From the IMG/VR virus record IMGVR_UViG_3300045107_000039, positions 1 to 64,000 of that record: a DNA stretch of 64,000 nt; one strand, 5' to 3'. Positions 21,727-51,466 of the stretch are shown piece after piece. The DNA is from a virus. Position 1 is the first letter of the stretch, and each line of letters begins with the position of its first letter. The notes below the pieces were generated by a model. The model was not told the DNA's origin and did not search any database. It saw nothing but the letters and a program-made list of their open reading frames with translations. Both the position numbers and the translations under genes were made by a program.

Positions 21727-21776
21727 GATTGAGTGCGTGGCTCATAACTAGAATAAAGGAAGGTGGAGTCATAGTT

Positions 21777-23297
21777 ATGCTAAAGAAGAGAACATTCCGG
21801 GAATTCGTCGAAGAACAGAAGGCGAGAAACGGCCTCGGCAGTGCCGGTGGTGCTGGCGAGGAGCCGTTGACTTCACGAATCTCCCTGGGCGACGGCAACG
21901 ACCTGCCGCCTTTTACCGTTTCCGACGACACGAACTCCGAACACTTCGGGAAGAACAAGAATCTCGCACCGCTCGTGCGAGCTTTCAAGAAGAGTGCGAA
22001 TTGGGGCTGGAGCAAAGACCCGAAGACGGGCGAGGACAAGCCGGTCAAGGTGGGCAGCAAGAAACTGTACCTGACCGGCGGTGCGCTCCGTGACCACCTG
22101 ACGGGCCGCAAGCCCCGTCACATCGAACTGGTGACGGACGCCAGCCCCGACGAAGTGTACCACATCCTCACCCAGAACAAGTTCAAGTTCATCGGCGAGA
22201 ACGGCCAGCCGGACAACGGCCCGAACTCGTCCATGCAGGCGGGCGGACTCGGCGGCGAACAACCGGCCGCTCAGCAGGTGTTCTGGGTGAAGAAGAAGGA
22301 CTCCGGCGGTCGTCCGTACAGCTTCGGTGTTAAGGTTCGCAACGACGAGTTCGACCTGAGCGTGTTCACCCGGAGCAAAGAGGGCGACATCATGAACGGC
22401 ACGCACGCAGACGATGCGGCTGGCCGTGACTTCACCATCAACTCGATGTACCTGTTGCTCGGCAACGACAACGGCCCGAACAAGGAACTGAGCGACTTCT
22501 TCGGCGGACTCCACCACCTGAAGGCCGGTCGTATCTCGCCCATCGGCGGGTTCGACGCCAAGTTCAGTGAAGACCCGATGCGTATCCTCCGGTTCGCCCG
22601 GATGATGGCCCGCTACGGCGATCCGGCGTCCATCAGCGACGAAGAAACCGAGATGATCCGCAAGGCTGCCCCGCTGCTCGCTAAGGTGGACCGAAAGGCC
22701 GCTATGGACGAGTTCATGAAGGGCATGGGCTACGAGGACATCGACCCCCGGAAGTTCCTGAAGCTCCTGAGCGTTCTCGGTGTTACGGATCACCTGTTCC
22801 CACCAGAAGTGGGCGGCGACCTGAACATGGAGATGCCGAGCGGCCTGCGGGAGATCGGCGACCGCCACGCCCCGATTGCGTGGATGATGCAGAAGTTGCC
22901 GGAAGGCGTGATCGTCCGACAACTCGAAGGCGTCCGCCCGGAAGACGTGAAGAAGATCGTTGTTTTGGTGAAGACCCTGGGCCTGTCCCCGGAAGTGGAC
23001 GCTAACTCGCTCGCCGAAATGACGGACGCCATCATGACTTCGGGCGTTCCGACCCGAAAGATTCGGGCGTGGTTGACGAAGGTCGGCGGCAAACCCGACA
23101 GCTTGGCCGACGCATTCGTGGCCTACCTCAACTCCCCAAGAGTCGAGCCGATCAACGGTAACGGTGAAGTGACCGACGCCTTTGCGTCCCTCAAAGACCC
23201 GTTCTCCGGTCAACTCCGCACTGAAGACGCAACTCAGAAGAAGCGGGAGATGGAACTGCAAATGTTCCGGTCGCTCCTGCGGAAGTCTTTACAATAA
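21777..23297 (+). CDS. CCA-adding enzyme / poly(A) polymerase family nucleotidyltransferase with altered active site
   Basis: 506 residues from the ATG at 21777, preceded by AAGGAAGGTGGAG. Class II tRNA nucleotidyltransferase motifs are in order: YLTGGALRDHLTG (98-110), EFDLSVF (191-197), GRDFTINSM (216-224), EDPMRILRFAR (265-275), and a helical C-terminal body. The family normally has DxD in the first motif (…DFDLVT/DIDLAT); here the aligned residues are H115-I-E117 (RHIELVTD). Loss of the first Asp may impair metal-dependent catalysis or signal a changed activity. A 50-residue insertion with Gly/Gln sits at 140-170. The family adds CCA to tRNA 3' ends, and the permuted tRNA genes at 43 kb lack CCA. 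It is followed 51 bases later by an RNA-repair-type HAD protein. Confidence 0.87.
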   Translation: MLKKRTFREFVEEQKARNGLGSAGGAGEEPLTSRISLGDGNDLPPFTVSDDTNSEHFGKNKNLAPLVRAFKKSANWGWSKDPKTGEDKPVKVGSKKLYLTGGALRDHLTGRKPRHIELVTDASPDEVYHILTQNKFKFIGENGQPDNGPNSSMQAGGLGGEQPAAQQVFWVKKKDSGGRPYSFGVKVRNDEFDLSVFTRSKEGDIMNGTHADDAAGRDFTINSMYLLLGNDNGPNKELSDFFGGLHHLKAGRISPIGGFDAKFSEDPMRILRFARMMARYGDPASISDEETEMIRKAAPLLAKVDRKAAMDEFMKGMGYEDIDPRKFLKLLSVLGVTDHLFPPEVGGDLNMEMPSGLREIGDRHAPIAWMMQKLPEGVIVRQLEGVRPEDVKKIVVLVKTLGLSPEVDANSLAEMTDAIMTSGVPTRKIRAWLTKVGGKPDSLADAFVAYLNSPRVEPINGNGEVTDAFASLKDPFSGQLRTEDATQKKREMELQMFRSLLRKSLQ

Positions 23298-23348
23298 CCG
23301 ACGCCCGTGGTATATTGAGCTAAAACCTCGATGACCACGGGTGCCGTC

Positions 23349-23999
23349 ATGAAATACTTAGACATCTTCGATCTCGACGGGACTCTGTGGAAGAACCCCG
23401 TCGATACCCCCGAAACTCGTAAGCAATACGAGAAGGCTACCGGCATCCCCTGGGCAATCTCCAAGAGCTTGTCGAAGGAACTGTCGGCAAAGCACGGGAA
23501 GTTCATTCCGATGCGGCAGGGCTGGTACGGGCGTGCGGAGACGATGCAACCGCCGCTCTGCCCGGACCCGCTGACGCCGGAGTGGTTCATCACGGAAACC
23601 GTGGAGGCATTGAGGAAGTCCGCCGCCGACCCCGAACGGGCGACCGTCATCATGACCGGCCGACACGCTGGGCTTGCCCAGCAAGTCTACCGGGTCATCC
23701 ACGACGGGAAGCTCGCCCAGGTCGAGAAGGTCGGTAACGGTACTTTCCGGTGGGTCGATCCGAAGGTACAGTTGTTCCTCCTCGGGAACGACGGTCCGGC
23801 TATTAAGCTGGCAAAAGGTCCGAAGCCACAGGAAACCTTCCCGTGGAAGAAGTGGATTATCGACCAGTTCGTTGCCCTCTGGACGGACCTGGAAGAGATT
23901 CACATCTGGGAAGACCGGGACGAACACGTCGTCTCGTTCGGTGAACTCCAAGCCGAACTGGACCCGTTATTAGTCAAGGTCTACCACGTTAAGCTGTAA
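23349..23999 (+). CDS. HAD phosphatase of the SAK (RNA-repair) type
   Basis: 216 residues from the ATG at 23349; an in-frame ATG at 23331 is possible, neither has a strong ribosome site. HAD motifs: DLDGT with nucleophile D8 and acid D10, motif II TVIMTGRH (99-106, T103), motif III around K167, and motif IV EDRDEH (188-193). The long cap after motif I and the C-terminal IHIWEDRDEHVVSF resemble the Swiss-Army-Knife HAD family, associated with RNA-repair ligases and 3'-end healing. Encoded next to the CCA-enzyme homologue, it probably removes phosphates from RNA (tRNA) ends. Substrate is inference; phosphatase family is well supported. Confidence 0.8.
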   Translation: MKYLDIFDLDGTLWKNPVDTPETRKQYEKATGIPWAISKSLSKELSAKHGKFIPMRQGWYGRAETMQPPLCPDPLTPEWFITETVEALRKSAADPERATVIMTGRHAGLAQQVYRVIHDGKLAQVEKVGNGTFRWVDPKVQLFLLGNDGPAIKLAKGPKPQETFPWKKWIIDQFVALWTDLEEIHIWEDRDEHVVSFGELQAELDPLLVKVYHVKL

Positions 24000-34970: not shown

Positions 34971-35392
34971 GACTGTCCCTTGTAGAACGGATGGTGCAGC
35001 ATCCTCTTACGGAACTTCTCGGGATCGCCCGACCGCCGCCAGTTGCAGCTTCCGCAGGACGGAACGAGATTGCTGCTCTCGTTGCCGCCGCCCTGACTGA
35101 TCTCCTTCAGGTGATCGACCGTCGCCATCTTACAGGAGACGATCTCGCCCGTTTCGATCCGCCAGTACAACACCGTCGGACTACGCCGCACCACAACCTC
35201 GTGGGGTATGGTGTCGGCGTTGACCAGCTTGGCATTGCACCAATAGCAACTGTAGCTGTGGTCAGCCAGCAGCCGGTTCAGTTCCCGGCGTGCCTTTGAC
35301 CTTACCCGGTCCTTTCGGTTCTTTTTGGACCGGGGCGACAGAACGAGGAAAGAGCGGCTGGATGGGTTCGACTTGAACCTCACCCAGCCCAT
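34967..35392 (-). CDS. HNH endonuclease
   Basis: 141 residues, ATG at 35392. HNH core: SCYWCNAKLV (CxxC), ATVDHLKEISQGG (catalytic DH) and SSNLVPSCGSCNWRR (N and CxxC). The N terminus (35262-35392) overlaps the 3' end of the methionyl-tRNA synthetase gene in another frame, a 131-base overlap; a shorter start inside metG is possible. HNH proteins cut DNA and may be homing endonucleases or packaging nucleases; context favours a mobile, selfish gene inserted after metG. Confidence 0.75.
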   Translation of the reverse strand: MGWVRFKSNPSSRSFLVLSPRSKKNRKDRVRSKARRELNRLLADHSYSCYWCNAKLVNADTIPHEVVVRRSPTVLYWRIETGEIVSCKMATVDHLKEISQGGGNESSNLVPSCGSCNWRRSGDPEKFRKRMLHHPFYKGQS

Positions 35393-36911
35393 CTCCGTTG
35401 TAGTGAGCGATCCGGGCCAAGTCTCCGAAGGTCATGTTCGGCCAGTCCTTCAGACCGAGAGCCACGGCGATCTTGGCCGCAGTCCCCGGCATGAACGGCT
35501 TGAGCATCAGGGACACGATCCGCAGGGCGGCGACGAGTTCCCTCAGCACGTCCAGGCACTTGCCCTGGTCGGTCTTTGTCAACTCCCAGGGCTTGTTCGC
35601 CTCGATGTACTCGTTCGCCCGGTGCAGGATGTTCCAGATGGTCGTCAGGGCGGCTCGGTAGTTGAACAACGCCATGTCGGTGCGGAAGTCGGTCATCGTC
35701 TTCGGGTCGAGCCAGACCTTCTCCGTCTTGCCGAACGGCAACTTCCCGCCGCCGTACTTCACGATCATCTGGATGGAGCGGTTGACCAAGTTCCCCAGGT
35801 TGTTCGCCAAGTCGGCGTTGTACACTTCCCGAATGTGGTCCCTGCTGTACTCGCCGTCCGCACCGAACGGGCACTTCGCCATGAAGTAGTAGCGGTACGC
35901 CTCGGCCCCGAACTCCTCGACGAGCGGCCCCAGGTTCGACTCGGCGTCCGTCTTCGACTCCCGGACGAGTTCGTGCCCCTTCTTCCGGTAGATGAAGCCG
36001 TGGGAAAACACCTGCTTCGGCAGGTCGATCACGGGCAGTTCTTCGGCGAGGCCGATGGAGTGCTGGTTCTGCACTACCTCGTTGTAGGCCATAATCATCG
36101 CAGGCCAGAGGGTGCAGTGGAACCGGGTGATGTCCTTCCCGATCACATGCACGTCGGCGGGCCAGAGGTTCTTGAACATCCCCCAATCCCAGCCGAACCC
36201 GACGCCGGTCAGGTAGCTCAGGAGGGCGTCGAACCAGACGTAGATCGTCTGCGTCGTGTCGAACGGCACCGGGATGCCCCAGCCCCGGCTCGAACGGCTG
36301 ATGCTCATGTCGTGCAGTTCGGTCTGCACTAAGTCAAGCATCTCGTTGCGGCGGGCCTCCGGGAAGATTTCCGCCTTCTTGTAGTAGTCGAGCAGCCGGT
36401 CCTTGAAGGCCGACAACTTGAAGAAGTAGTTCTCCTCGGTCACTTCCACGACCGGGGTGTTCTGGTGGTGCGGGCACCGCTTGGCGTAGTCGAGCGACTT
36501 CGGGGTCTTGAATTCCTCGCACCCCTCGCAGTACAGGGCGGTGTACGGCCGCTTCTCGATGTAGCCGCTGGCCCAGACGGCGTTGATGAACTTCTCGACG
36601 CCCTGCCGGTGCCGGTCCTTGCTGGTCTGGAGGAAGGCCGAGTAGTCGATGCCGAGCTTCTGCCACTCGTGCATGAAGGCGACGGCCATGTTATCGACGT
36701 ACTCTTGCGTCGTCAGCCCTTCGGGCGTGGCCTTGACCACCTTAACGGTGTTCTCGTCGTTCCCCATCAGGAGGAACGGGTGGAAGCCGCAGAACCGGCG
36801 GAACCGGGCCTGCACGTCGGCACCGATCTTCTCGAACGCCGTGCCGTTGTGCGGGAGGGCGTTCGGGTAGTCAATGGCGGTGGTGATGTAGAACTTGTTC
36901 CAACGGTTCAC
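35262..36911 (-). CDS. metG: Methionyl-tRNA synthetase, divergent signature motifs
   Basis: 549 residues, GTG at 36911 behind AAGGAGG. The overall fold is MetRS. It has YPNALPHNGTAFEKIGAD (15-32), one zinc knuckle (C128, C131, C146, H149), WGIPVPFDTTQTIYVWFDAL (211-230), and the anticodon helix ADLANNLGNLVNR (366-378) with the conserved Asn and Arg. But the HIGH motif is HNGT (21-24), and where KMSKS is expected the aligned residues are RESKT (317-321), keeping only the Ser and the second Lys. A disordered Pro/Lys tail ends the protein. Phage synthetases are known in jumbo phages; altered motifs may change activity or evade inhibitors. Confidence 0.9.
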   Translation of the reverse strand: MNRWNKFYITTAIDYPNALPHNGTAFEKIGADVQARFRRFCGFHPFLLMGNDENTVKVVKATPEGLTTQEYVDNMAVAFMHEWQKLGIDYSAFLQTSKDRHRQGVEKFINAVWASGYIEKRPYTALYCEGCEEFKTPKSLDYAKRCPHHQNTPVVEVTEENYFFKLSAFKDRLLDYYKKAEIFPEARRNEMLDLVQTELHDMSISRSSRGWGIPVPFDTTQTIYVWFDALLSYLTGVGFGWDWGMFKNLWPADVHVIGKDITRFHCTLWPAMIMAYNEVVQNQHSIGLAEELPVIDLPKQVFSHGFIYRKKGHELVRESKTDAESNLGPLVEEFGAEAYRYYFMAKCPFGADGEYSRDHIREVYNADLANNLGNLVNRSIQMIVKYGGGKLPFGKTEKVWLDPKTMTDFRTDMALFNYRAALTTIWNILHRANEYIEANKPWELTKTDQGKCLDVLRELVAALRIVSLMLKPFMPGTAAKIAVALGLKDWPNMTFGDLARIAHYNGDGLGEVQVEPIQPLFPRSVAPVQKEPKGPGKVKGTPGTEPAAG

Positions 36912-38508: not shown

Positions 38509-39138
38509 TCAGCTTCCGCCGCACCCTCCACCACCGCAACCGCCCCCGCCGCCACACCCACCGCCGCCTCCACCACAACCCCCGCCACCGCCGCCTGCGT
38601 CTCCTCCACCGCCACCACAGGAAGCAGCGTGTCCGCCGGTGCCGCAAGCGGCTGCGTGGTCGCCGGAGGAGTGGGTTGTTGAGTGACTGGCACAGCCGCC
38701 TCCACAGAACACGACGGGCATGAACACGACATCACCACCCGAGGAAGTCGTCGTATCCCCGGCGTAGGCCGTGCCCTTTTTCCGGTCGAAAGCGGCCCGG
38801 TACATGTCCTTCGTTTCGTTGAACGCTTTCTTTTGCTCGTAGCTCCCGACGGGTAGGTGCGGGTTGTGGTGGATCGTCCGGCCGAAAATCTTCTTGCAGT
38901 CCTCCTCGTACTTGCGGGTATCGAGGATGTGGGCGTGCCAGAAGTCGTCGAGTTGCTGCGTCCACGGCACGACGGTCTTGCTGGGGTTGGTGGCGATCAA
39001 GTACAAGAACTGCTTGTACTCACCCTCCAGTTTGTCGATGCTGTTTCGCCACTTCCACCACCAGCTTTTCTGCGACTTCAGCTTCTCCTTCACCGAAGTG
39101 AAGTCCAGGGCGTCGATTTCGTCCCATTTCGCATCCAT
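38509..39138 (-). CDS. GRDP-like protein with Gly/Cys-rich tail
   Basis: 209 residues, ATG at 39138. The N-terminal 110 residues carry WTQQLDDFWHAHILDTRKYE and the segment IHHNPHLPVG, the pattern of the GRDP-like domain known from plants, fungi and bacteria (WH-x-HILDT, HH). The C-terminal 60 residues are an almost pure Gly repeat with interspersed Cys and Ser (GGGGGGCGGGGGGCGGGGGC). Function of the family is unclear (stress- or wall-related in plants). Unusual in a phage; may be a structural or adhesive protein. Confidence 0.75.
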   Translation of the reverse strand: MDAKWDEIDALDFTSVKEKLKSQKSWWWKWRNSIDKLEGEYKQFLYLIATNPSKTVVPWTQQLDDFWHAHILDTRKYEEDCKKIFGRTIHHNPHLPVGSYEQKKAFNETKDMYRAAFDRKKGTAYAGDTTTSSGGDVVFMPVVFCGGGCASHSTTHSSGDHAAACGTGGHAASCGGGGGDAGGGGGGCGGGGGGCGGGGGCGGGGCGGS

Positions 39139-39170
39139 GCTAGTCTCCGTTTATGAGTTACAGAACTCCG

Positions 39171-39356
39171 TTACTTTCCCCTAGATATCAATCGTAGGAG
39201 TTGAGGGGTGTGGCAGGGACACGAGGTTACGTCGTCCCAGGGACCGTAGTGGATGATGTACATGCCGTCTTTCACGGCTTGGATGTGACCCCTGGTCGGC
39301 CCGACAACCGTATCCCACTCTACGAGATCGCCGACGTAGAACATCTGAGGATTCAT
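39171..39356 (-). CDS. Small hypothetical protein
   Basis: 61 residues, ATG at 39356 (a 9-codon upstream extension is possible). Beta-rich: FYVGDLVEWDTVVGPTRGHI and GMYIIHYGPWDD, then CPCHTPQLLRL. It looks like a small barrel, with a CPC motif. Its start codon overlaps, on the opposite strand, that of the divergent zincin gene (39355). Confidence 0.5.
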   Translation of the reverse strand: MNPQMFYVGDLVEWDTVVGPTRGHIQAVKDGMYIIHYGPWDDVTSCPCHTPQLLRLISRGK

Positions 39357-40035
39357 GACATTCACCCGGTTTTTGGCTCGCAAACTGAACGAGGACTACC
39401 AGTCCCTCTCGGGGCAGGTCGCCAGCTTCTTAAGCAACATGATACGACAGGCTTACTCCCAACTCAAGAGGGATCAAGCCCGCCGTCCGTTTATTGTCTA
39501 TCTCAAAGCCGTCTGGCCGAAAGACGCACAGCGGGGCAACACCCTCCTGTTTCCGAAAGAACTCGGGCACGGGATCATGGGGAAGCCGGTGCAGTTTGCC
39601 CAGATTAACGACCCGCACGTCACCGCCAGCACCCAACACAACAACGGCGAGTTCTCCGGCATGACGTTCAACGCCCGGCTTGTGGACAAAAACCCGGACG
39701 AGGGCGTGAAGAAGTTGCTCAGTGCCGTCGAGCATGAAGTGGAACACATCTTCTTCCCCGGCCAGAGCCACGAAGACCCGGTGGACTACCTGTCCGATCC
39801 GGGCGAGATGCGGGCCTACGCACGGGAGATCGCCGAGGCGTACAAAAAGAAGTATCCGGGGATGCGGTTCCTACCCCGGCTGGCCGAGATGATGGTAAAA
39901 GAAGAACCCTTCAACCAGTCGCACAGGAACTACCTGACGGGGCTGAAGGGTTCGGAAATCGGCAAGCAGATGCTAGACCTTATTTCTGCTCACTTTTCGG
40001 GACAAACATCCGGGGCGCACGGCCCTGAATCTTAA
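39355..40035 (+). CDS. Zincin-like metalloprotease
   Basis: 226 residues, ATG at 39355 (divergent overlap with the minus-strand gene). The zinc motif AVEHEVEHIFFPG (HExxH, H127-H131) is followed by YLSDPGEMRAYAREIAEAYK, a downstream acidic helix typical of small phage zincins. The N terminus (TRFLARKLNEDYQSLSG) is helical. Probable peptidase with unknown target; third of four short zincins in the window. Confidence 0.7.
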   Translation: MTFTRFLARKLNEDYQSLSGQVASFLSNMIRQAYSQLKRDQARRPFIVYLKAVWPKDAQRGNTLLFPKELGHGIMGKPVQFAQINDPHVTASTQHNNGEFSGMTFNARLVDKNPDEGVKKLLSAVEHEVEHIFFPGQSHEDPVDYLSDPGEMRAYAREIAEAYKKKYPGMRFLPRLAEMMVKEEPFNQSHRNYLTGLKGSEIGKQMLDLISAHFSGQTSGAHGPES

Positions 40036-40291
40036 CGAACTGCTGAATCTTTACTTGGCGGTAGATCACGCAGCAGATCACGCCGCCGATGATACCCATG
40101 ATGAGGCCCGACGACGAGATCGGGCTGCCGCCGTAGCCGAGCATCCAGTTCAAGAACCCACCGACGTAAGAGCCAGCCACGCCGATGCCCAGGGTCGGTA
40201 GGAACCCTACCGGGTCTTCACCTGGGTGAAGCTTCTTTGCAATCCAGCCCACGATCAGGCCGTAAATCAACCAACCAAACAGGTGCAACAT
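39980..40291 (-). CDS. GlsB/YeaQ/YmgE-type membrane protein
   Basis: 103 residues, ATG at 40291. Several membrane helices (MLHLFGWLIYGLIVGWIAKK, LGIGVAGSYVGGFLNWMLG, SSGLIMGIIGGVICCVIYRQ) with the HPGEDP motif after the first one, characteristic of the GlsB/YeaQ transglycosylase-associated small-membrane-protein family. A stress or envelope role is plausible; adding a host-like membrane protein from a phage is uncommon. Confidence 0.75.
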   Translation of the reverse strand: MLHLFGWLIYGLIVGWIAKKLHPGEDPVGFLPTLGIGVAGSYVGGFLNWMLGYGGSPISSSGLIMGIIGGVICCVIYRQVKIQQFVKIQGRAPRMFVPKSEQK

Positions 40292-40309
40292 AAGTACCTC
40301 CTCCTCTAT

Positions 40310-40969
40310 TTATGCCGCCGGAAGTCTTCCGGCGAAAAACGCCTTACACTGATTACAAATAGTAACCCTCTCCTCGAAGTGCGTCGGCCGGTCCGACAGA
40401 GCGTGCCCAGCCGGTAACTCGACCACCGGCAGCCTGTAAGCGAACGGCCGCTTCCAGTGCCAGGACCGCACGGCATACGACATGAAGATGTCCTCGCCGT
40501 TCTTGTGCGGTATCTCGTACCCGGCGTCCCGGTAGTCGTTGGCACATTGAATAATAACCGGCAACGCCGACCGATGGAACATCGACACACGGTTCAGCAC
40601 GATGTCGCACGCTCCGTAAGCGTTCCTCCGGTCGTACCCGACACCGATCCGTCGGCCGAAGACCCCGTGGATGCGGTGCGGGTCACGCACGGTCATGGCC
40701 TCCAGAATCCGTATGGTCATCTCGGGCAGGATCAGGTCGTCGTCTTGGAGTAAGATGATGGGGGACGTGGCGAAACAGGCCGGTGCCCACCTGCACTTAA
40801 GGCCGAAGTCGTGGGTGGAGTTCAAGACCTGAGCCTTGTCGTGGAAGAAGGGGACGGGAGAATTGTTGAAGACTATAAACTCAGACACGCAGCCGTAAGC
40901 CGACTGCGTGTCTATGATCTGCGTCAGGTTCTCCGGGCGTTTCCAGTTAAAGAAAACGATGGAAACCAT
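40310..40969 (-). CDS. GT2/GT64-like glycosyltransferase
   Basis: 219 residues, ATG at 40969. Starts VSIVFFNWKRPENLTQIIDT and has SPIILLQDDDLILPEM (DDD 76-78) typical of GT-A enzymes that bind a metal-UDP-sugar. C-terminal part contains cysteines and HKNGEDIFMSY. It likely transfers a sugar to a phage or host molecule; with the other glycosyltransferase at 26357 it points to glycan modification. Acceptor unknown. Confidence 0.7.
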   Translation of the reverse strand: MVSIVFFNWKRPENLTQIIDTQSAYGCVSEFIVFNNSPVPFFHDKAQVLNSTHDFGLKCRWAPACFATSPIILLQDDDLILPEMTIRILEAMTVRDPHRIHGVFGRRIGVGYDRRNAYGACDIVLNRVSMFHRSALPVIIQCANDYRDAGYEIPHKNGEDIFMSYAVRSWHWKRPFAYRLPVVELPAGHALSDRPTHFEERVTICNQCKAFFAGRLPAA

Positions 40970-42051
40970 TACTCACCAACGCCCGGCCCGAGGGCGACCG
41001 GCATCGACGGCTTTGCCGGAGTCGGGAACATCTTCTTCCGTGGCTGGCGAGCCGCCTTCAGCGGGTCGTTCGGCTGAGCCGCCACCTTGTTCGCCGCCGC
41101 CAGTTGTTGCCCGCCCATCTCCATCGCCTCCTGAGCGGCGGAAATGATGTCGGCCATCTGCTGCTTGTTCGAGATGTCCACCGTCTCGACCCGATCACCG
41201 ACCTTGATCTTGACGGCCCGTGGGTTACGCAACTTGCCCATCGCCGCCTGGATCGAGTCACGGTCGGACGGGTTGAAGTTCAGGACGTGCCCGCCGCCGA
41301 GGATGATCTGCACCGGGCTGGTGGACTTCGGCAGCCGCTCGCCGAACTTCAGCTTCGGAGCGGCCGACATCGCAATCGTGTTACCCAACTGTTGTAGGTT
41401 GTGGTAGGCGTCGATCTTCTCCGTGGCGTTCAACGGCGACTGGCCGCTGACGATGCCCTGGACGGTGGACACGCTCTTGTGGATGTCGTTCATCATCTTC
41501 ATCACGGCGTCGTTCTGCAACGCCCGCAGCGTGTTGTCCACCTGCTGCATGATCTCGGCCTTCACTTTTTGCAGGTACGACTTCACCGACTGAATCTTCA
41601 TGCCGTGGTTGTCCTCGACGTACAACTCGGCCTCGATCAGCAACCCGTTGACCGCCCGGATGCCTTCTGCGGCGACCGGCGGGACACGGGTCGGCACTTG
41701 TTCCGCTGCCGGGGCGGCGTACTGAACGTCCTGGTCGCTGTCGCCCCAACTGTTAATCTTGTCGGCGATCTTACCTAACACCTGAACGATCTTCGCCCGG
41801 TCCACGGAGTTGATCTTCTGCTGCGAGCCGAACGACCGCTGGAGTTGGCCTTCGAGTTCGGCGAACTTGGCGTCCACCATCTTCGAGAGTTCTTCCCGTG
41901 CCTGGGCGAACCCCGCCTGCACGTTCTTGACCTTTTGCTTCTTCTCGGCCACCGTGTCCTCGCCAGGAGCGGGGGCTTCCGTAGCGGCACCCACGTCCTC
42001 CACTTCACTGAGGAGTCGCCGATAAACATAATCAGTAAATGACTTGGACAT
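40969..42051 (-). CDS. Hypothetical protein, helical, virion-associated?
   Basis: 360 residues from the ATG at 42051, behind AAAGGA; an extension to 42090 is rejected. Mostly helical, acidic N terminus (SEVEDVGAATEAPAPGEDTV), long coiled coil with Gln/Lys/Asp (80-200: RSFGSQQKINSVDRAKIVQV), then a beta segment (VQIILGGGHVLNFNPSD) and a Pro/Arg-rich tail. Could be a structural or head-tail protein. No motif found. Confidence 0.5.
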   Translation of the reverse strand: MSKSFTDYVYRRLLSEVEDVGAATEAPAPGEDTVAEKKQKVKNVQAGFAQAREELSKMVDAKFAELEGQLQRSFGSQQKINSVDRAKIVQVLGKIADKINSWGDSDQDVQYAAPAAEQVPTRVPPVAAEGIRAVNGLLIEAELYVEDNHGMKIQSVKSYLQKVKAEIMQQVDNTLRALQNDAVMKMMNDIHKSVSTVQGIVSGQSPLNATEKIDAYHNLQQLGNTIAMSAAPKLKFGERLPKSTSPVQIILGGGHVLNFNPSDRDSIQAAMGKLRNPRAVKIKVGDRVETVDISNKQQMADIISAAQEAMEMGGQQLAAANKVAAQPNDPLKAARQPRKKMFPTPAKPSMPVALGPGVGE

Positions 42052-42072
42052 ATTGACTTTTTCCTTTATACT
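42044..42072 (+). promoter_or_regulatory. Candidate promoter for the 42089 gene
   Basis: TTGGAC (42044-42049) and TATACT (42067-42072) are spaced by exactly 17 bases, followed by GGAGGGAGCC and the ATG at 42089. The -35 lies inside the divergent gene start. It has the same -10 as the tRNA promoter at 43273. Confidence 0.6.
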
Positions 42073-42088
42073 ATCTATGGAGGGAGCC

Positions 42089-42589
42089 ATGAAAAAGGAA
42101 GAAGTCGATCAGATCGCAAACTTGCTTTACATCGAACACGAGTACGTCGAACAACAGCACAGCGGTTCCTTCGAACTCTACCGCAGTTCCGTAATGGAAC
42201 ACATGTTCCCCGTCGGGGTGACGGTCGATTACCTGGGCAGCGGCACGGTGAAGGGGCTGCACCGGCTCAACAGCCAGCGGCTCGTCCACGTCGTCCGGGG
42301 CGGGGTGTTCCTGGCCGTCGTCGATCTCCGGGACGACTCGGACACGTTTAATAACACCTACACGGTTGACCTGGACACGAACAACTCCGTCCTGGTGCCG
42401 GAATACTGTGCGATGGGCCTGTTGGCCCACGAAGAAAGTATCGTACTTACGCTGCTCGACGACGAGTGGAACCCGGAGCGGATCGAGTACATTCACTGGA
42501 AGTCGTTCAAGATCAAGTGGCCGAAGCGGAAGAGGTATCTCCTGAACGACGCTGATCGTTCCGCTCCGCAATGGTCAGCACGGCCGTGA
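42089..42589 (+). CDS. Hypothetical protein
   Basis: 166 residues from the ATG at 42089 behind GGAGGGAGCC; an ATG at 42044 lies in the promoter and is rejected. Helical N terminus (KKEEVDQIANLLYIEHEYVE), then a beta-rich core (FPVGVTVDYLGSGTVKGLHR, HVVRGGVFLAVVDLRDDSDT). The latter part has a barrel-like character. No motif recognised. Its end overlaps the next minus gene. Confidence 0.5.
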   Translation: MKKEEVDQIANLLYIEHEYVEQQHSGSFELYRSSVMEHMFPVGVTVDYLGSGTVKGLHRLNSQRLVHVVRGGVFLAVVDLRDDSDTFNNTYTVDLDTNNSVLVPEYCAMGLLAHEESIVLTLLDDEWNPERIEYIHWKSFKIKWPKRKRYLLNDADRSAPQWSARP

Positions 42590-42836
42590 TTGCCGCCTCC
42601 CACGCCTCTTCCTCGGTATCAAACCCGATGGCGTAGGGAGGATTCCCCTCCGCATCCGTCGCATCCAGTTCTTCCTGTTCACGAATCAAATCGAACACTT
42701 CCACCGGCAGCAGGTTCGGCCTGAACCCCGGCGGGTGGTTGTCGTACATCCTGAACCAAGTGAAGTATTGGTTCTTCCCGTCCGGGCAGTACACGGCGGG
42801 CTTCTTGGTGGCGAGCAGTTCTTCTTCAGCGAACAT
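42513..42836 (-). CDS. Small hypothetical protein
   Basis: 107 residues from the ATG at 42836 (a TTG at 42848 extends into the preceding terminator). Sequence (FAEEELLATKKPAVYCPDGK) is followed by an acidic helix ending EEAWEAAITAVLTIAE. It lies directly downstream of the tRNA-unit terminator, so it is transcribed separately. Unknown family. Confidence 0.45.
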   Translation of the reverse strand: MFAEEELLATKKPAVYCPDGKNQYFTWFRMYDNHPPGFRPNLLPVEVFDLIREQEELDATDAEGNPPYAIGFDTEEEAWEAAITAVLTIAERNDQRRSGDTSSASAT

Positions 42837-42846
42837 AAGTGCTTTC

Positions 42847-42884
42847 AAAAAAAGAGGCCAGGAGGCATAGCCCGCCCCCTGGCC
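42847..42884 (-). terminator. Intrinsic terminator of the permuted tRNA unit
   Basis: On the minus strand, a stem built on GGCCAGG / CCTGGCC (with GGGGG and CTC extending it) is followed by TCTTTTTTT. It ends the RNA that starts near 43266 and contains both tRNA genes. No protein gene is needed to explain it. Confidence 0.85.
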
Positions 42885-42974
42885 CGAGAATTTTCATTAG
42901 TAGTGAAAACGGCATGGTACAATTACTGCGAGTCCCCTTACTGTATCCGTTTAAGCCAGTTATTCAATCTATCT

Positions 42975-43068
42975 ACCCTGTACCATTTCCATTATGACCA
43001 CTCCCTCGTAAGTAGTTTGGGCGAGAGCGAGGGAGGCGTGATTCGAACACGCATCTCAGGGTTGTAAA
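42975..43068 (-). tRNA. Permuted tRNA gene A, anticodon UAC (Val-like)
   Basis: Read along the minus strand, the 3' half comes first: anticodon loop TTTACAA (43062-43068), 3' stem CCCTG (43057-43061), variable AGAT, T arm GCGTG-TTCGAAT-CACGC, 3' acceptor CTCCCTC (43029-43035) and base G73 (43028). After 20 nt comes the 5' half: acceptor GAGGGAG (43001-43007), TG, a D arm with GG (weak stem), and the 5' anticodon stem CAGGG (42976-42980). GAGGGAG pairs perfectly with CTCCCTC, and CAGGG with CCCTG. No CCA is encoded. The anticodon loop has U33 and A37 and is close to bacterial tRNA-Val(UAC). Normal gene order is impossible here because no matching acceptor lies upstream. Confidence 0.8.
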
Positions 43069-43141
43069 CACTGGCACTCGATTAAGGGAACACCTGCCAA
43101 TCTTTTAGCTTAGAGTGATAGTCTGTGGCTGAGATAGCCCG

Positions 43142-43237
43142 GCTTACCCTCTGCCATTGGGGTATCCCGCTATGTACTCGTTTGGGCGAAGTAGCGGGAG
43201 TTGGATTCGAACCAACACTGATTGCCAAGCAGGTTAG
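43142..43237 (-). tRNA. Permuted tRNA-like gene B, identity unresolved
   Basis: Same layout on the minus strand. The 3' half has loop CTAACCT, stem GCTTG (43226-43230), a 9-base variable segment, T arm GTTGG-TTCGAAT-CCAAC, acceptor TCCCGCT (43193-43199) and A73. After 20 nt comes the 5' half with acceptor AGCGGGA (43165-43171), TA, D arm CCCCAATGGCAGAGG and anticodon stem TAAGC (43142-43146). Acceptor pairing is a perfect 7 bp, and TAAGC pairs with GCTTG including one G-U. The D-loop carries GG at positions 18-19 and A14, as in a normal tRNA. The loop lacks A37 and the variable region is odd, so decoding identity is uncertain and it might be a non-decoding tRNA-like RNA. No CCA. Confidence 0.65.
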
Positions 43238-43272
43238 CTTGAGATTCACCTTTAGCTTGCACTCTGCCCCTC

Positions 43273-43300
43273 AGTATAGCCGCTTCTTACAGAATGTCAA
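43273..43300 (-). promoter_or_regulatory. Consensus promoter of the permuted tRNA unit
   Basis: On the minus strand TTGACA (43295-43300), 16 bases, TATACT (43273-43278). Transcription would begin near 43266, giving a short leader before tRNA B. This assigns the unit its own promoter and shows that the sequence AGCGGCTATACTG is promoter, not an upstream acceptor stem. Confidence 0.85.
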
Positions 43301-43359
43301 CACCGGAAAGGAGGAAAATAAGAATAACTACAGAAAACGTTCTTCATGAGGAGGAGAAC

Positions 43360-44013
43360 ATGATTACCATCAAAAAGAAATGGCTCGGCCTGTTCGGGGC
43401 CGTGCTGTTCGTCATGGCTGTAATCGTCGGTTCTATACCGGAACACTTCGACTACCCGCCCGCCCACGCCATCCCGAACTTCCCGACCGCACAACAGCCC
43501 GACAGCATCACCTGCGGCCCGACCAGCACGGCGATGGTGTTACGCCACTACGGGCAGGACGTGACCATCGAGCAGGTCAAGCAGATGACCAAGACCCACT
43601 GGTTCGGCACCGGCGGCGACGAAGTGGGCATGACCGCCCCGGACTACATCGTCCGGGTGCTGAAGCAGCACGGCATCCGGGCCACGTTAAAGAACGACAA
43701 CTTCGACGAGTTGAAATACGAGGTATCCCAGGACCGGCCGGTGATCGTACTCGTCCGGTCCGGGAAGAAAACTTGGCACTACATGGTCGCCATCGGCTAC
43801 ACCGAGAAGCAGATGATCTTCTCGGACCCGGCCGACGGCCAATACTACAACGTGGATAACGAACACTTCCTGCTGGCCTGGGGCCACGACGGGAACTGCT
43901 CGGGCGAGGACTACCGGGTGGACTCGATGTTCGGCAAGTCCTCGGACTACATGAAGGTTCTTCTACGGGCGACCGAAATCCTCCCGAAGACCTACATTAC
44001 CGTTGCACCCTGA
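43360..44013 (+). CDS. Exported C39-like cysteine protease
   Basis: 217 residues from the ATG at 43360 (site GAGGAGGAG); an extension to 43294 runs through the tRNA promoter and is rejected. A hydrophobic N terminus (LGLFGAVLFVMAVIVGS) forms a signal or anchor. Catalytic pattern of C39_2/papain-like proteases: ITCGPTSTAMVL (C52), TWHYMVAIGY (H140) and FSDPADGQYY (D156). Such enzymes process or degrade exported peptides; in a phage they could act on the host envelope. It is divergent from the tRNA unit. Confidence 0.8.
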   Translation: MITIKKKWLGLFGAVLFVMAVIVGSIPEHFDYPPAHAIPNFPTAQQPDSITCGPTSTAMVLRHYGQDVTIEQVKQMTKTHWFGTGGDEVGMTAPDYIVRVLKQHGIRATLKNDNFDELKYEVSQDRPVIVLVRSGKKTWHYMVAIGYTEKQMIFSDPADGQYYNVDNEHFLLAWGHDGNCSGEDYRVDSMFGKSSDYMKVLLRATEILPKTYITVAP

Positions 44014-44431: not shown

Positions 44432-45406
44432 TTAGGCCGACTCTTCCTTGAAACTGAAGACGGTGACGCTCCCCTGCCCCTCGGACAGCATCACCCCGTA
44501 CTTGTCGGCGTTGATGAAGCTCGTCCGGGCACGGCTGTACTGCGTGTACCAGCCGATCCCGTCGTAGCTGAAGTTGTAGTTCACGTTCGCCCCGTCGTCG
44601 TGAATCTGCATGAACCGCAGGTACGTCGGCTCGTCGTAGGGTGCCCACCCGTAGATCGTCCCGGCGAACGAAGTGCCGTTGTTCCAGGTGTGAACCCCGA
44701 TGTTGATGAAGTTGAACGTGCCCTGCTCCCAGGTGATGAACTTCCCGGACGACGACTCGTACTCCATGATCCCGCCCGAAAAGAAGCTCTCGGCCATCAC
44801 CCGCTTGTTAATGGTGTAGCAGATCGTCAGCTTGAACGGGGGCGTGAGGGCCGTCTTCACCAAACCCCCTCGGTTCGAACTGCCGTTCGGCAACGTGCTG
44901 TTTATGTTGAACACCGTGCCAAGCTGGGTAGCCGTTCTCGACGCCCCCTGGTTGACCCAGGTTAAGTCCGACAGCACCGGCGGGTAGAACCGGGTGAACG
45001 GGCCATAAGGCAACCAGTTCGACCCGTCACTGAACAACATCACCCGGTCGTCGCTAGTGAAGGCAACCCGTCCCGCCCTCCCGGCAGACGGCAAGGCAGA
45101 GTAGCTGCTGACGACAACGGACTCGTCCAACGCCTTATTCAATCCTCCGGCCGTGAAGATGTGCTTGACGGTCGATCCGTTCTCGTGAGCGACGATCTGC
45201 GTCCCCTCCTGGGCACGGCTGGCGGTGAACGTGTTCCCGGAGACGGATGTCACCAGGAGGATTTCACTGTCGATCTGGATGCGAAAGTTCCCACTCCTCG
45301 GGAACACCGAACCGTTGTGAACGGAGATCGGTGCCGGGTCGGTCGAGCTATCCAGGGCAGCCGTCAGGTACGAGACTGCGTTGTTACCAAACACTTCAAC
45401 GGCCAT
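44432..45406 (-). CDS. Tail fibre/receptor protein, tandem copy 1
   Basis: 324 residues, ATG at 45406 overlapping the next gene's stop. N-terminal 90 residues are a conserved module (SGNFRIQIDSEILLVTSVSG followed by NTFTASRAQEGTQI), shared with the next two proteins. The rest is a beta-rich, variable domain with a concanavalin-like look (FNFINIGVHTWNNGTSF, SYDGIGWYTQYSR). Typical adhesin design: conserved attachment module plus variable receptor-binding domain. Confidence 0.75.
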   Translation of the reverse strand: MAVEVFGNNAVSYLTAALDSSTDPAPISVHNGSVFPRSGNFRIQIDSEILLVTSVSGNTFTASRAQEGTQIVAHENGSTVKHIFTAGGLNKALDESVVVSSYSALPSAGRAGRVAFTSDDRVMLFSDGSNWLPYGPFTRFYPPVLSDLTWVNQGASRTATQLGTVFNINSTLPNGSSNRGGLVKTALTPPFKLTICYTINKRVMAESFFSGGIMEYESSSGKFITWEQGTFNFINIGVHTWNNGTSFAGTIYGWAPYDEPTYLRFMQIHDDGANVNYNFSYDGIGWYTQYSRARTSFINADKYGVMLSEGQGSVTVFSFKEESA

Positions 45407-46371
45407 TACGCACTCTCCTCCTTAAAGCTCAGGACGTTCGTCGTCGCCGACCCCTCGCCCACAATGAACCCGTACTGGTCGGGGGTTGCCAGCCACGCCG
45501 TCTTGCTCTGGGTGTAAAGCGTGTCCCAATAAATACCGTCCGCCGAGAAGTTGAACCTGTGGTTCGTCCCGTCGTCGTGAATCTGGAGGAACTTGATCCA
45601 CCCCGCCGTGTACTCAATCGAACCCCAGCCCAGCGGTGAGTTGTTGAACGACGTGGGCGAGTTCCACTGGTGAACGCCGCAAGCCCCGAACGCCATCGCT
45701 ATCTCGAACGTGACCAACTTCCCGGTCGCCGAATCCCGGATAGCCAAACCCGCCGTCCGGGTATCCCCCGGCAGCGAACCCGTCTGACTGTAAATCATGG
45801 TGATCTTGTACGGGGCGGTGATCGTACTCTTGAACACCCCACGCCTCGTACCTCCAGCCCCGCCCACCTGGACAATCTGGGCACCGAACGCCGTCTGGCT
45901 GTACGTCGTGCCCGAGAAGTTAACCTGAGTCGCCCCGGAGAAGTTCGGCCGTGTCACCGGATAGATGGGGCCGTACCGAAGCCAGTTCGACCCGTCGCTC
46001 ACCATAACCACATATTCGTCGGTCGGAACGTACATCCGGCCCGCTCGCCCCGCAGAGGACGGCAGACTCGCATACGGCCCGGTGGTGATGTTGTCGGCGA
46101 GGACTTGTGTCAACACCCCCGCAGTGAAGACGTGCCGCACCCCGGCCCCGACCGCATGGGCCTGGATCGGGCTGCCTTCCGCACCCCTCGTCGCAGTGAA
46201 GTTGTTCCCCGAGACGGAAGTCACCAGGAGGATTTCACTATCAACCACAATGCGGAAGTTGCCTGCCGTGGGAAATGCGGACGCACTGGCGACGGCGAAG
46301 GTGACGGGGGTCGTACTCTCGTCGATGGCACCGGCCAGGGTCGTGAACGCATTATTAGTGAATCTTTCCAT
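45406..46371 (-). CDS. Tail fibre/receptor protein, tandem copy 2
   Basis: 321 residues, ATG at 46371. Same N-terminal module as its neighbours (SGNFRI-like segment, ILLVTSVSGNNFTATRGAEG) and a different C-terminal domain (FAMAFGACGVHQWNSPTSF-like strands, NFSADGIYWDTLYTQ). Paralogue by tandem duplication; the 1-base overlaps suggest one transcript. Confidence 0.75.
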   Translation of the reverse strand: MERFTNNAFTTLAGAIDESTTPVTFAVASASAFPTAGNFRIVVDSEILLVTSVSGNNFTATRGAEGSPIQAHAVGAGVRHVFTAGVLTQVLADNITTGPYASLPSSAGRAGRMYVPTDEYVVMVSDGSNWLRYGPIYPVTRPNFSGATQVNFSGTTYSQTAFGAQIVQVGGAGGTRRGVFKSTITAPYKITMIYSQTGSLPGDTRTAGLAIRDSATGKLVTFEIAMAFGACGVHQWNSPTSFNNSPLGWGSIEYTAGWIKFLQIHDDGTNHRFNFSADGIYWDTLYTQSKTAWLATPDQYGFIVGEGSATTNVLSFKEESA

Positions 46372-47345
46372 TAGCCCTCTTCGATACTCCAGACGATCAT
46401 CTTGTTCAGGCCGTCCACCGTTTCCCCGAGTTCAAAGCCGATCTGGTCGGCCGTAATCAGGGTCGTCCGCCCCCGGCTGTAGATGGTTTCGTAGAAGATG
46501 CCGTCGTAGGACAGGTTGTAGTTCACGTTCGTCCCGTCGTCGTGAACCTGGAGGAACCGCATGAACTTCGGGTGCGGGTAATCCGTCCACCCGTAGAGCA
46601 TGCTGTTAAAGCTCGTGACGGTGTTGAAATACAACACGCCGAACCGCAGGAAGTTCACCCCGTAGGACTGCTCGATGGTAATACACTTCCCGGTACTGGA
46701 CTCCCGCTGGATAATCCCACAGGCCGAGTTCCGGGTGAAGATGTTCTCGACGTTGGCGGTGAAGATCAGCGTGTACCGGAACGGCGGCGTCAGGGCCGTC
46801 TTCATCCGGGCGTACCGGGTGCCGAACGTGTGGTTATCCCCGGTCATGATGATGTGGTGCCCGTTCTGCGTGATCGTCGTACTGCCCTGGTTCACCCAGG
46901 AGTACAGGCTGTTGTCCGGGTACGTCATCTTAATCATCGGCCCGACCGGCATCCACCCCGACGCCTGACCCACCTGCCAGTCCTGGTCGTTGTTCGGGAC
47001 GTACAGTCGCCCCCGCTCGGGGCTGGCCGGGAGTTGGGCGTACTGCCCGCTCTGGACGGTATCCGAGCAAGCCGCCGTCAACGCCCCCGCAGTGAACAGG
47101 TGGTAGACCGGGGCGGTGTGGTCGTGCTTGGCGATCACCGTCCCCTCCTGGGCACGGGTGGCGGTGAAGTTGTTGCCGGAGACGGAAGTCACCAGCATGA
47201 TCTCGCTGTCGATGATGATTCGGAAGTTGCCGGACGACGGGAACCCGGTAGCATCGGCCACGGTGAAAGTCACCGGGTTCGAGCTATTGTTGATGCCGCC
47301 GATCTGATTGACGGTAGTTCTGAGATTGTTCGCAAACCGCTCCAT
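46371..47345 (-). CDS. Tail fibre/receptor protein, tandem copy 3
   Basis: 324 residues, ATG at 47345. Shares the module (SGNFRIIIDSEIMLVTSVSG) and the terminal pattern (NYNLSYDGIFYETIYSR) with the other two copies. It carries the least similar central part. All three could be a fibre-tip repertoire, perhaps alternative receptor-binding proteins or components of one complex. Confidence 0.75.
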   Translation of the reverse strand: MERFANNLRTTVNQIGGINNSSNPVTFTVADATGFPSSGNFRIIIDSEIMLVTSVSGNNFTATRAQEGTVIAKHDHTAPVYHLFTAGALTAACSDTVQSGQYAQLPASPERGRLYVPNNDQDWQVGQASGWMPVGPMIKMTYPDNSLYSWVNQGSTTITQNGHHIIMTGDNHTFGTRYARMKTALTPPFRYTLIFTANVENIFTRNSACGIIQRESSTGKCITIEQSYGVNFLRFGVLYFNTVTSFNSMLYGWTDYPHPKFMRFLQVHDDGTNVNYNLSYDGIFYETIYSRGRTTLITADQIGFELGETVDGLNKMIVWSIEEG

Positions 47346-49994: not shown

Positions 49995-50336
49995 TTAGTT
50001 CGTGACGGCCGGGAAGAGACGGGTGTAATCGACGGGTTTCTTGAACGCCTGATCGAAGCCGATCTCCTTCGCCTCGTTGCTGATGTCGTAGCCGCTCACC
50101 GCCACCATCAGCGTTTTGTAATGAGCGGGCTGGCAGCGGATTCGCTTACAAACCTCGGTGCCGGGGATGTCGGGAAGGCCAATGTCCACGATGAAGCAGT
50201 CAGGCACCACCGACTTCGCCAACTCCACAGCTTCCAGGCCCGTCTTCACCCTCGTGACTTGATGCCCGAGCATATCGAGAAGCATCATGCTGGAGTCGGC
50301 GATGTCGTCGTGGTCTTCTACAAGGACGATGTTCAT
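49995..50336 (-). CDS. Response regulator receiver protein
   Basis: 113 residues, ATG at 50336 overlapping the kinase stop. Canonical receiver: acidic pair ED (7-8), phosphoacceptor D51 (FIVDIGLPD), S81 switch and the conserved lysine K100 (FKKPVDY). No output domain is attached. It receives phosphate from the histidine kinase encoded just upstream and probably acts by direct protein contact. Confidence 0.9.
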   Translation of the reverse strand: MNIVLVEDHDDIADSSMMLLDMLGHQVTRVKTGLEAVELAKSVVPDCFIVDIGLPDIPGTEVCKRIRCQPAHYKTLMVAVSGYDISNEAKEIGFDQAFKKPVDYTRLFPAVTN

Positions 50337-51466
50337 GCTACCTCCGTGATTGGTATCGTGACCAGGAACTCAGCCCCTTGCTCGACGCCGTTGCTCTTAG
50401 CACTGACATGACCGCCATGAAGCTCGACAATCGCCCGGACCATCGCCAGTCCGACGCCCATACCGTCCGCCTTCTTGGCAGCACGTTCCGTTCGGACACA
50501 GAGTCCGAAGATGGTGTCCAGCTTCTCCGGCCCGATGCCGATGCCGTAATCTCGAACTGATAGGTGGAGTATACCACCCTCGCAGGTAACAGTAACTTCG
50601 ATTTTGCCGCCTTCGTGCCCATACTTCGCAGCATTGGTAAGCAGGTTGCTCACAACCTGAGCCATGCGCATCTCATCGGCAACAAAGCACAGGTCTTCCG
50701 GCGGTTGTTCGACACTCACCACGCACTTGTGCTTCTTGATGGTGGCTGCGGCGAGTTCCATCGCCCGCTCGATGATCTGACGGGCACACGTTTTGTCCTG
50801 CCTCAACTCCAGCCGACCCTGGACGGCACGAGCGACGTTGATGATGTCGTCCACCAGCCGGTTCAGGTGGTCGATCTGGTTCTCCAGTATCTTCATCCCG
50901 AGTTCCCGGCTCTTGGCCGAGTCCCGTTCCAGAAGTTGTTTTGCGTTGAAAACGGCGGCGAGTGGGTTGCGGAGTTCGTGGCCGAGGATCGCCAGGAAGT
51001 CGTCCTTCGCTTTTTGTTCGAAGACAAGATGCCCGTTCTGCTTCTCCAGGGCGTCGTTCTTCTGGGATAGCGTCTCGGTCCTCTCCCGTATCTCCCTCGG
51101 CGTCTGGATCATCTTGACGGCGAGTGGGTACATTCTGAACAGCAGGATGACTGTACTGAAGGAAACAACCCCGCAGACCAGCTTGATGATCCCGGCCAGC
51201 CTGTAGTTGGGCCAGTAGAAGAGGGCCACATCCATGAAGTGTGTCAGGCCGCACGACACGATGAAGTCACAGAAGGCGTAGAAGATCAGGGAGAACTTCA
51301 TCCCCGGTTTCGCCCGGACGAATTTCCAGATGAACAGGGGGATGAGGAGATATGAAACCCCGATCAGAATGTCAGAGACGTTATGCAGTGCGATCAACTC
51401 GTTCGTCCAGGCACCGCAGACTCGGCGAGGAACGAACCCAGAGACATCCGTGAAAACATCCCACAT
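50333..51466 (-). CDS. Ethylene-receptor-like sensor histidine kinase
   Basis: 377 residues, ATG at 51466. The N terminus has three membrane helices. The first two (VSDILIGVSYLLIPLFIWKF, AFCDFIVSCGLTHFMDVALF) match the ethylene-binding domain of plant ETR1-type and cyanobacterial receptors, with the equivalents of D25, Y32 and the copper ligands C65 and H69 (here D32, Y39, C72, H76). A coiled linker leads to a histidine kinase: LGHELRNPL (H163), N278, DYGIGIG (306-312) and GMGVGL (335-340). It would sense ethylene or another copper-bound ligand and phosphorylate the adjacent receiver. Phage-borne two-component systems are rare. Confidence 0.88.
   Translation of the reverse strand: MWDVFTDVSGFVPRRVCGAWTNELIALHNVSDILIGVSYLLIPLFIWKFVRAKPGMKFSLIFYAFCDFIVSCGLTHFMDVALFYWPNYRLAGIIKLVCGVVSFSTVILLFRMYPLAVKMIQTPREIRERTETLSQKNDALEKQNGHLVFEQKAKDDFLAILGHELRNPLAAVFNAKQLLERDSAKSRELGMKILENQIDHLNRLVDDIINVARAVQGRLELRQDKTCARQIIERAMELAAATIKKHKCVVSVEQPPEDLCFVADEMRMAQVVSNLLTNAAKYGHEGGKIEVTVTCEGGILHLSVRDYGIGIGPEKLDTIFGLCVRTERAAKKADGMGVGLAMVRAIVELHGGHVSAKSNGVEQGAEFLVTIPITEVA

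Follow-up and report, generated by a model that had tools for sequence, protein, structure and literature searches.

Two tRNA-like elements in permuted order in a phage transcription unit, and their possible maturation through halves of a small intron

Organization of the locus

The stretch of viral DNA analysed here (64 kb, referred to as the window) contains a minus-strand unit, 43300-42847, in which a sigma-70-like promoter is followed by two tRNA-like elements and a terminator. Its neighbours are, on the plus strand, a C39-peptidase-like gene (43294-44013) and, on the minus strand, a small ORF without a Pfam match (42513-42848). In both elements the canonical T arm comes first, followed by the 3' acceptor strand, 21 nt formed by the discriminator and a spacer, the 5' acceptor strand, fully complementary to the 3' one, and the D arm. 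The features of the unit are as follows:

43273-43300, minus strand: sigma-70-like promoter TTGACA-N16-TATACT, with 11 of 12 consensus bases
43260-43265, minus strand: AGAGTG, upstream arm of a putative 6-bp outer helix around element 1 (sequence reading)
43193-43230, minus strand: element 1, 3' half, with GCTTG (possibly positions 39-43), a 9-nt variable region, T arm (43216-43200) and 3' acceptor TCCCGCT (43199-43193)
43172-43192, minus strand: element 1 discriminator (A, 43192) and spacer with TCGCCCAAAC, between the acceptor strands
43142-43171, minus strand: element 1, 5' half, with acceptor AGCGGGA (43171-43165), TA, D arm (one C-A mismatch in the stem), G26 and TAAGC
43070-43093, minus strand: upstream flank of element 2, resembling an intron 3' half, with Pb strand GTGTTCC (43093-43087, or GTTCCCTTA, 43091-43083), linker and Pa strand GCCAGT (43075-43070)
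43062-43068, minus strand: TTTACAA, which is either the UAC anticodon loop formed when element 2 is rejoined or partly the intron-end motif TTACA
43029-43061, minus strand: element 2, 3' half, with CCCTG (positions 39-43), variable region AGAT, T arm (43052-43036) and 3' acceptor CTCCCTC (43035-43029)
43008-43028, minus strand: element 2 discriminator (G, 43028) and spacer, between the acceptor strands
42976-43007, minus strand: element 2, 5' half, with acceptor GAGGGAG (43007-43001), TG, D arm GTCA-TAATGGAAA-TGGT with wobble pairs, A26 and CAGGG (positions 27-31)
42932-42960, minus strand: downstream flank of element 2, resembling an intron 5' half, with Pa strand ACTGGC (42960-42955), TTAAAC and Pb strand GGATAC (42948-42943, or TAAGGGGAC, 42940-42932)
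42855-42885, minus strand: intrinsic terminator from the terminator scan, a stem of 13 pairs followed by seven T

The original prediction had described this promoter, this terminator, the order of the two elements (3' half first), 7-bp acceptor stems formed with a 5' segment lying downstream and canonical T-loops, and all of them were recovered; the two acceptor stems are Watson-Crick at 7/7 pairs in permuted order. Neither the promoter nor the terminator is significant alone, because the same scan of shuffled sequence averages 0.6 promoters and 1.3 terminators. The full-length transcript folds more stably than any of 100 shuffles (z -2.79). The sequence TCGCCCAAAC is common to both spacers (43192-43172 and 43028-43008) despite the differing tRNA parts around them, and is possibly a processing signal.

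Ordinary tRNA searches and the tmRNA model detected neither an ordinary tRNA nor a tmRNA in the 64-kb window, and there is no Rfam match in it to a group I or group II catalytic core or to a known ribozyme. A segment of 5,080 bases (window 38552-43631) is present unchanged in the IMG/VR contig IMGVR_UViG_3300045256_000050 (244,986 bases), which carries two ordinary tRNAs elsewhere.

Search in permuted order and chance background

A covariance search in permuted order, which had been proposed as a check, was carried out with a model (R1) made from 30 natural tRNAs, most of them taken from related phages, recast in permuted order. Bases 32-36 were omitted from R1 because the junction should not be presumed. 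In the window R1 finds just the two elements, element 2 with 39.8 bits (E 5.6e-16) and element 1 with 37.6 bits (E 5.6e-15), the third-best match being of 8.4 bits.

R1 also matches tandem ordinary tRNAs in related phages, a property that favours reading the locus as three decayed ordinary tRNA genes in an array, with adjoining halves that mimic permutation. In such an array the middle acceptor would pair in normal order (AGCGGGA with CTCCCTC), and this pairing is incomplete, whereas the permuted stems are both 7/7; moreover, the window has no detectable ordinary tRNA, and only the permuted order gives element 2 a perfect anticodon stem. Upstream of element 1 there is a region resembling its 5' half (11/1000 shuffles as good, in one of 11 comparisons); the decayed array is nevertheless an unlikely explanation. 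An origin by tandem duplication was also considered and rejected, one of the four outer-half comparisons standing at 1.1% and three at 81-97%. Among the R1 matches in related phages, those with a neighbourhood checked by ARAGORN proved mostly to be tandem ordinary tRNAs and were likewise rejected. For the match at 290746-290815 of LR756511, the assignment to tandem ordinary tRNAs was itself dropped after a permuted, split-intron arrangement was read there.

The chance background was estimated from T arms. The loci scanned contain 274 distinct T arms, 205 inside ordinary tRNAs and 69 orphan; a permuted acceptor partner accompanies 3/205 of the former and 5/69 of the latter, elements 1 and 2 included. 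A survey of 300,698 bases (16 stretches of related phages, the window and four stretches of its 245-kb contig) gave 59 T arms that belong to no ARAGORN tRNA. Apart from the two in the window, many of these have their acceptor partner upstream at an abnormal distance, as ordinary tRNAs with short introns.

The metagenomic source of the DNA and the three ordinary T arms that have a permuted partner by chance speak for an assembly artefact or a coincidence, a very improbable explanation. Against it stand the presence of the same sequence in two virus records, possibly not independent, the position of both elements within one promoter-terminator unit and the identical gene order found in other phages. 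The permuted order of the window genes is very probably real.

Rejoining of the two elements

Rejoined in permuted order, element 2 gives CAGGG-TTTACAA-CCCTG with the variable region AGAT, and ARAGORN reads it as tRNA-Val(UAC). Among 784 joins of this element three are canonical, all of one sequence, and 15/5000 flank shuffles have any canonical join. A discriminator G73 is unusual for tRNA-Val. The heptamer TTTACAA cannot be both wholly intron end and wholly anticodon loop.

Of the two elements for which joining at the anticodon loop had been proposed, element 2, with its canonical tRNA-Val(UAC), has a convincing anticodon arm; for element 1 the join test gave no canonical join and no canonical anticodon arm. 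Its anticodon stem is at best TAAGC/GCTTG, with the 9-nt variable region. AGAGTG, upstream of element 1, has a putative partner in CACTCT (43117-43112), and the helix is present in a constrained fold; the stability of the element 1 piece alone is not unusual, being matched by 16/200 shuffles.

The unconstrained minimum-energy fold holds the permuted cloverleaf of element 2 and pairs its flanks through the outer helices GCCAGU/ACUGGC and GUUCCCUUA/UAAGGGGAC. Taken by itself, the element 2 piece has no unusual stability (z -0.94, 38/200 shuffles as good). Its junction, read from sequence and fold, is an internal loop of 7 x 14 nt and not a bulge-helix-bulge (BHB).

Related phages

Large-phage relatives were found through methionyl-tRNA synthetase and baseplate searches. 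One is LR756511.1 (595 kb), with a baseplate protein 44.5% identical; others are IMG/VR contigs of up to 533 kb. Four of the five synthetase relatives have 41-69 tRNA model matches each (E up to 10), and the fifth, a 17.6-kb contig, has none. A phage DNA search, two locus patterns and the neighbouring proteins revealed no near relative of the exact locus, just the same contig and a further one (L012) that stops short of the tRNA region. The sole extra locus-pattern match (L002) was rejected as chance, lying inside apparent coding sequence. A genome-contig pattern matched at least 116 stretches, and no permuted tRNA was seen in the loci fetched from among the matches listed. Six tRNA-rich loci gave 111 Rfam matches at gathering scores, all of them to tRNA and none to a group I or II intron.

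Several tRNA loci of these phages are peculiar in other respects. Inserts of ~180-200 nt, with the motifs GCAAAAG.., TAAAAA.CGTGA and GACAGGCTTG, interrupt tRNAs at L276 5169 (record G003) and L286 2117 (G005), and besides tRNA they have no Rfam match at gathering scores. A further tRNA-like gene, whose acceptor partner, with wobbles, is 309 nt upstream, may be split into halves around a complete tRNA-Val at L286 5118-5443 (G005). Two tandem tRNA-like units X and Y in G005 (L181 1472-1632, L285 2640-2790) have their acceptor strands paired crosswise (X 3' with Y 5' over 7 bp, X 5' with Y 3' over 5 bp) and contiguous odd anticodon hairpins; the pair (L181) was set apart from the permuted tRNAs, its anticodon stem not closing in permuted order.

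Small introns in normal and swapped order

Huge phages contain families of ~50-nt introns that occur both inside tRNAs of normal order and split around permuted tRNAs, with the intron 3' half upstream and the 5' half downstream of the permuted tRNA. Family W lies in one 4-kb region of LR756511. Seven chosen normal-order copies have two helices in common, Pa and Pb, with compensatory changes (on both sides) at 6/11 pairs; 97.4% of the Pa/Pb cells are paired, vs 84.0% in shuffles, and the covariation score is 0.524 vs 0.242, with 0/500 shuffles as high. This alignment, whose first row was trimmed, omits the copies 7562, 8528, 6522 and 5998, of longer or doubtful 5' parts, as well as the split copies. 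With E up to 0.5 allowed, the family W model (R2) matches LR756511 12 times, in 11 cases with E below 0.002; 31 other records, the window's contig included, give three weak matches only (E 0.31-0.42).

In the same region of LR756511 two whole tRNAs and one permuted tRNA-Lys are enclosed by family W halves in swapped order. The tRNA-Lys has the T arm GCGGG-TTCGAAT-CCCGT, the acceptor CATCACA with TGTGGTG and the anticodon arm ACTGC-CTTTTAA-GCAGT. Over ~3.5 kb (L290 9440-5990, minus strand) 14 sites have (A/T)TACAAAC at their end and a further one has CTACAAAC. Normal and swapped order are both represented, and the sites include some that surround whole tRNAs as well as others with short exons that are not tRNAs. 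Directly after one intron 3' half (L290 ~8510-8280, minus strand) lies a segment that we take to resemble 23S rRNA (GGTCATAAGGTAGCGAG ... GGTAATGACGGCC).

Family A occurs in normal order inside tRNAs of G004 and G002, with boundaries read by eye, and in swapped order around permuted tRNAs of G003, L306, L313 and L316. Its 3'-half pattern matched 17 viral contigs, 11 of them with ARAGORN tRNAs nearby; L307, L308, L311, L315, L317 and L320 have no tRNA and were set aside as apparent chance pattern matches. An anchored 7-bp Pb partner lies at most 250 nt downstream of 32/54 intron 3' halves, against 3.33 expected from shuffles, in a set whose 3'-half motif was widened after reading L306. Before widening, 19/42 sites had an anchored partner at most 150 nt downstream (1.23 expected) and 3/42 had one upstream; L317, one of the 19, is probably a chance case without a tRNA. 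A looser test, accepting any downstream helix of at least 7 (31/42 sites), was near chance and was replaced by the anchored tests.

A strictly defined permuted tRNA is enclosed at 4/32 partnered sites, vs 1/640 random regions of the same loci. Three of them stand in a row in L306 (acceptors CTCGCCC/GGGCGAG, TGCTGCC/GGTAGTA and CAGCCCG/CGGGCTG) and the fourth is in L313 (ACCTGCA/TGCAGGT). Three further cases depart from the strict definition in one point each: the one in G003 (acceptor GGGCGGC/GCCGCCC) has a long D loop, that in L316 pairs at 6/7 acceptor positions, and that in L305 has two wobbles in the acceptor, its D arm not being clear. An earlier script tally of five includes the normal-order site L279 14841 and misses L305. 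L306 has five intron 3' halves in tandem (2260-1600, minus strand); permuted tRNAs follow three of these, each having a Pb pair of its own.

The L313 element rejoins to tRNA-Ile(UAU) and that of L316 to tRNA-Gln(UUG), at 28/29 (in L316 also at 29/30), with a canonical join in 11/5000 and 12/5000 shuffles, respectively. In our own reading, the normal-order introns of G004 tRNAs are located at 28/29 or 29/30. The G003 element is a tRNA-Arg(CCG) by eye, yet ARAGORN accepts no join; the join test found no canonical join for L305, and in L306, for the element at -1851 (one of three), the canonical joins carry an odd anticodon.

Flanks of the window elements

The flanks of element 2 follow a Pa/Pb/TTACAA rule that 16/20,000 shuffles and 20/42,400 window placements also satisfy; the rule was devised after seeing element 2, and only 2/3 of the LR756511 cases with swapped halves pass it. 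It does not hold for the flanks of element 1. The window flanks are absent from the 15 best window matches of the family A half profiles, which comprise 18 halves with L317, L321 and all normal-order copies omitted. Pairwise local similarity is non-significant (386, 43, 181 and 499 of 500 shuffles at least as good), and R2 has no copy in the window or in G001. The window genes are thus tied to the small introns by architecture, not by sequence.

RNA-processing genes

Three ORFs of the window have products related to RNA processing:

21627-23297, plus strand: ORF with a PolyA_pol/CCA-transferase-like nucleotidyltransferase domain, above the Pfam and below the curated NCBIfam cut-offs
23331-23999, plus strand: HAD_SAK_1 family protein (HAD domain of RNA-repair proteins)
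35262-36911, minus strand: methionyl-tRNA synthetase

RNA_ligase is matched twice in the phage contig, one match lying near the DRB0094 family and just below its cut-off (143.7 vs 151.15 bits), and RNA_ligase is present in 7/10 records searched, among them G001-G005 and LR756511. RtcB was not found in the phage contig, nor the archaeal/eukaryal (EndA-type) splicing endonuclease family in any of the 10 records searched. The RNA ligase and nucleotidyltransferase set would be compatible with a cut-and-ligate route.

Proposed maturation and its alternatives

The unit transcript would be the precursor of two circularly permuted tRNAs, element 2 being tRNA-Val(UAC). Its layout suggests a permuted intron-exon (PIE) arrangement in which the upstream flank would act as the intron 3' half and the downstream flank as the 5' half. 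By pairing across the tRNA (Pa, Pb), the intron halves would bring the 5' half's end and the 3' half's start together at the anticodon arm, where cutting and joining would close a circle; for element 2, CAGGG is predicted to be joined to (T)TTACAACCC, i.e. (T)TTACAACCCTG. RNase P and a 3' endonuclease would then excise the acceptor spacer and CCA would be added, with a predicted mature tRNA of 73 nt. That the window flanks are such an intron (lacking support around element 1), as well as the cutting, joining, circle, trimming and function, we infer from the gene arrangement. The joined circle is the best reading because other phages have permuted tRNAs between intron halves of normal-order families, and we assign a probability of about 65% to maturation by way of such a circle with the aid of intron halves. 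Of the circular intermediate originally proposed on the model of algae and archaea, the permuted order and, as the best reading, the circle itself are retained; the algal/archaeal route is not supported, the element 2 junction having no BHB and the endonuclease family occurring in none of the 10 records searched.

The two elements might instead yield two-piece RNAs without joining, as permuted tmRNA does, the spacer being excised and the halves staying paired as a nicked tRNA-like decoy or regulator. Two-piece tmRNA carries a reading frame for the tag and lacks a normal anticodon arm; element 1, too, is without a canonical one. Rejoining of element 2, L313, L316 and the LR756511 tRNA-Lys produces a complete canonical anticodon stem-loop in each case, which speaks against halves that remain separate, as do the absence of a detected tmRNA in the window and the intron halves that flank permuted tRNAs of other phages. 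The gene order and the (here inferred) removal of a spacer are shared with two-piece tmRNA, the halves of which, according to passages of PMC3978253, are not ligated, unlike those of the proposed joined tRNA. We consider this alternative improbable, if slightly less so than the decayed array.

Extending the joined-circle reading, huge phages may have at least two families of ~50-nt introns, belonging neither to groups I and II nor to the BHB type, that would splice tRNAs in normal order and, in permuted order, make circles releasing tRNAs and short non-tRNA exons, the chemistry being performed by the RNA itself or by a phage nuclease-ligase pair; the window genes would be divergent members. 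For this wider proposal the prospects are evenly balanced.

Comparison with known systems

Passages of Soma's review (PMC3978253) count 34 permuted tRNA genes to 2014, in six algae and one archaeon, and tie them to BHB motifs. The phage elements share with these genes the leading 3' half, the spacer between the acceptor strands, a rejoined cloverleaf (element 2) and a circle, here proposed. They differ in residing in a phage genome, in a junction without BHB, in that no EndA-type endonuclease was found, and in flanks resembling the halves of a different small intron. In the open-licence PMC literature searched, no title or opening of an abstract was found to report a permuted tRNA gene in a phage.

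The existence of tRNA introns in megaphages is already published. Introns in the tRNAs of Lak megaphages are called enigmatic in passages of PMC6784885, and a passage of PMC13037316 mentions tRNA intronic sequences of recoded jumbo phages that could encode another tRNA. Both cases resemble the present one as introns within tRNA genes of very large phages; in those passages, unlike here, the introns described are in normal order, some of them possibly encoding tRNAs, and the word "permuted" is absent from the main texts of both papers.

Swapped intron halves around an exon, giving a circle (here proposed), also recall circularly permuted group II introns, which occur naturally, and PIE constructs engineered from group I introns. 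The phage introns differ from these in having halves of ~25 nt and no Rfam group I/II match. Group II introns are named as permuted in passages of PMC10085705.

For bacteria and their viruses, a route that splices tRNAs with tiny introns in both normal and permuted order would be novel. If it occurs, it would provide a natural small tool for circular RNA and a cause for the enigmatic megaphage tRNA introns. Because ordinary finders overlook permuted tRNAs, calling none here, counts of the tRNAs in huge phages may be too low.

Other features of the window

Three adjoining similar ORFs of ~320 aa occupy 44432-47345 on the minus strand, the first of which matches tail-fibre families. Also on the minus strand, at 49995-51466, a response regulator is encoded beside a histidine kinase whose sensor domain is ethylene-receptor-like, a combination that is unusual in a phage.
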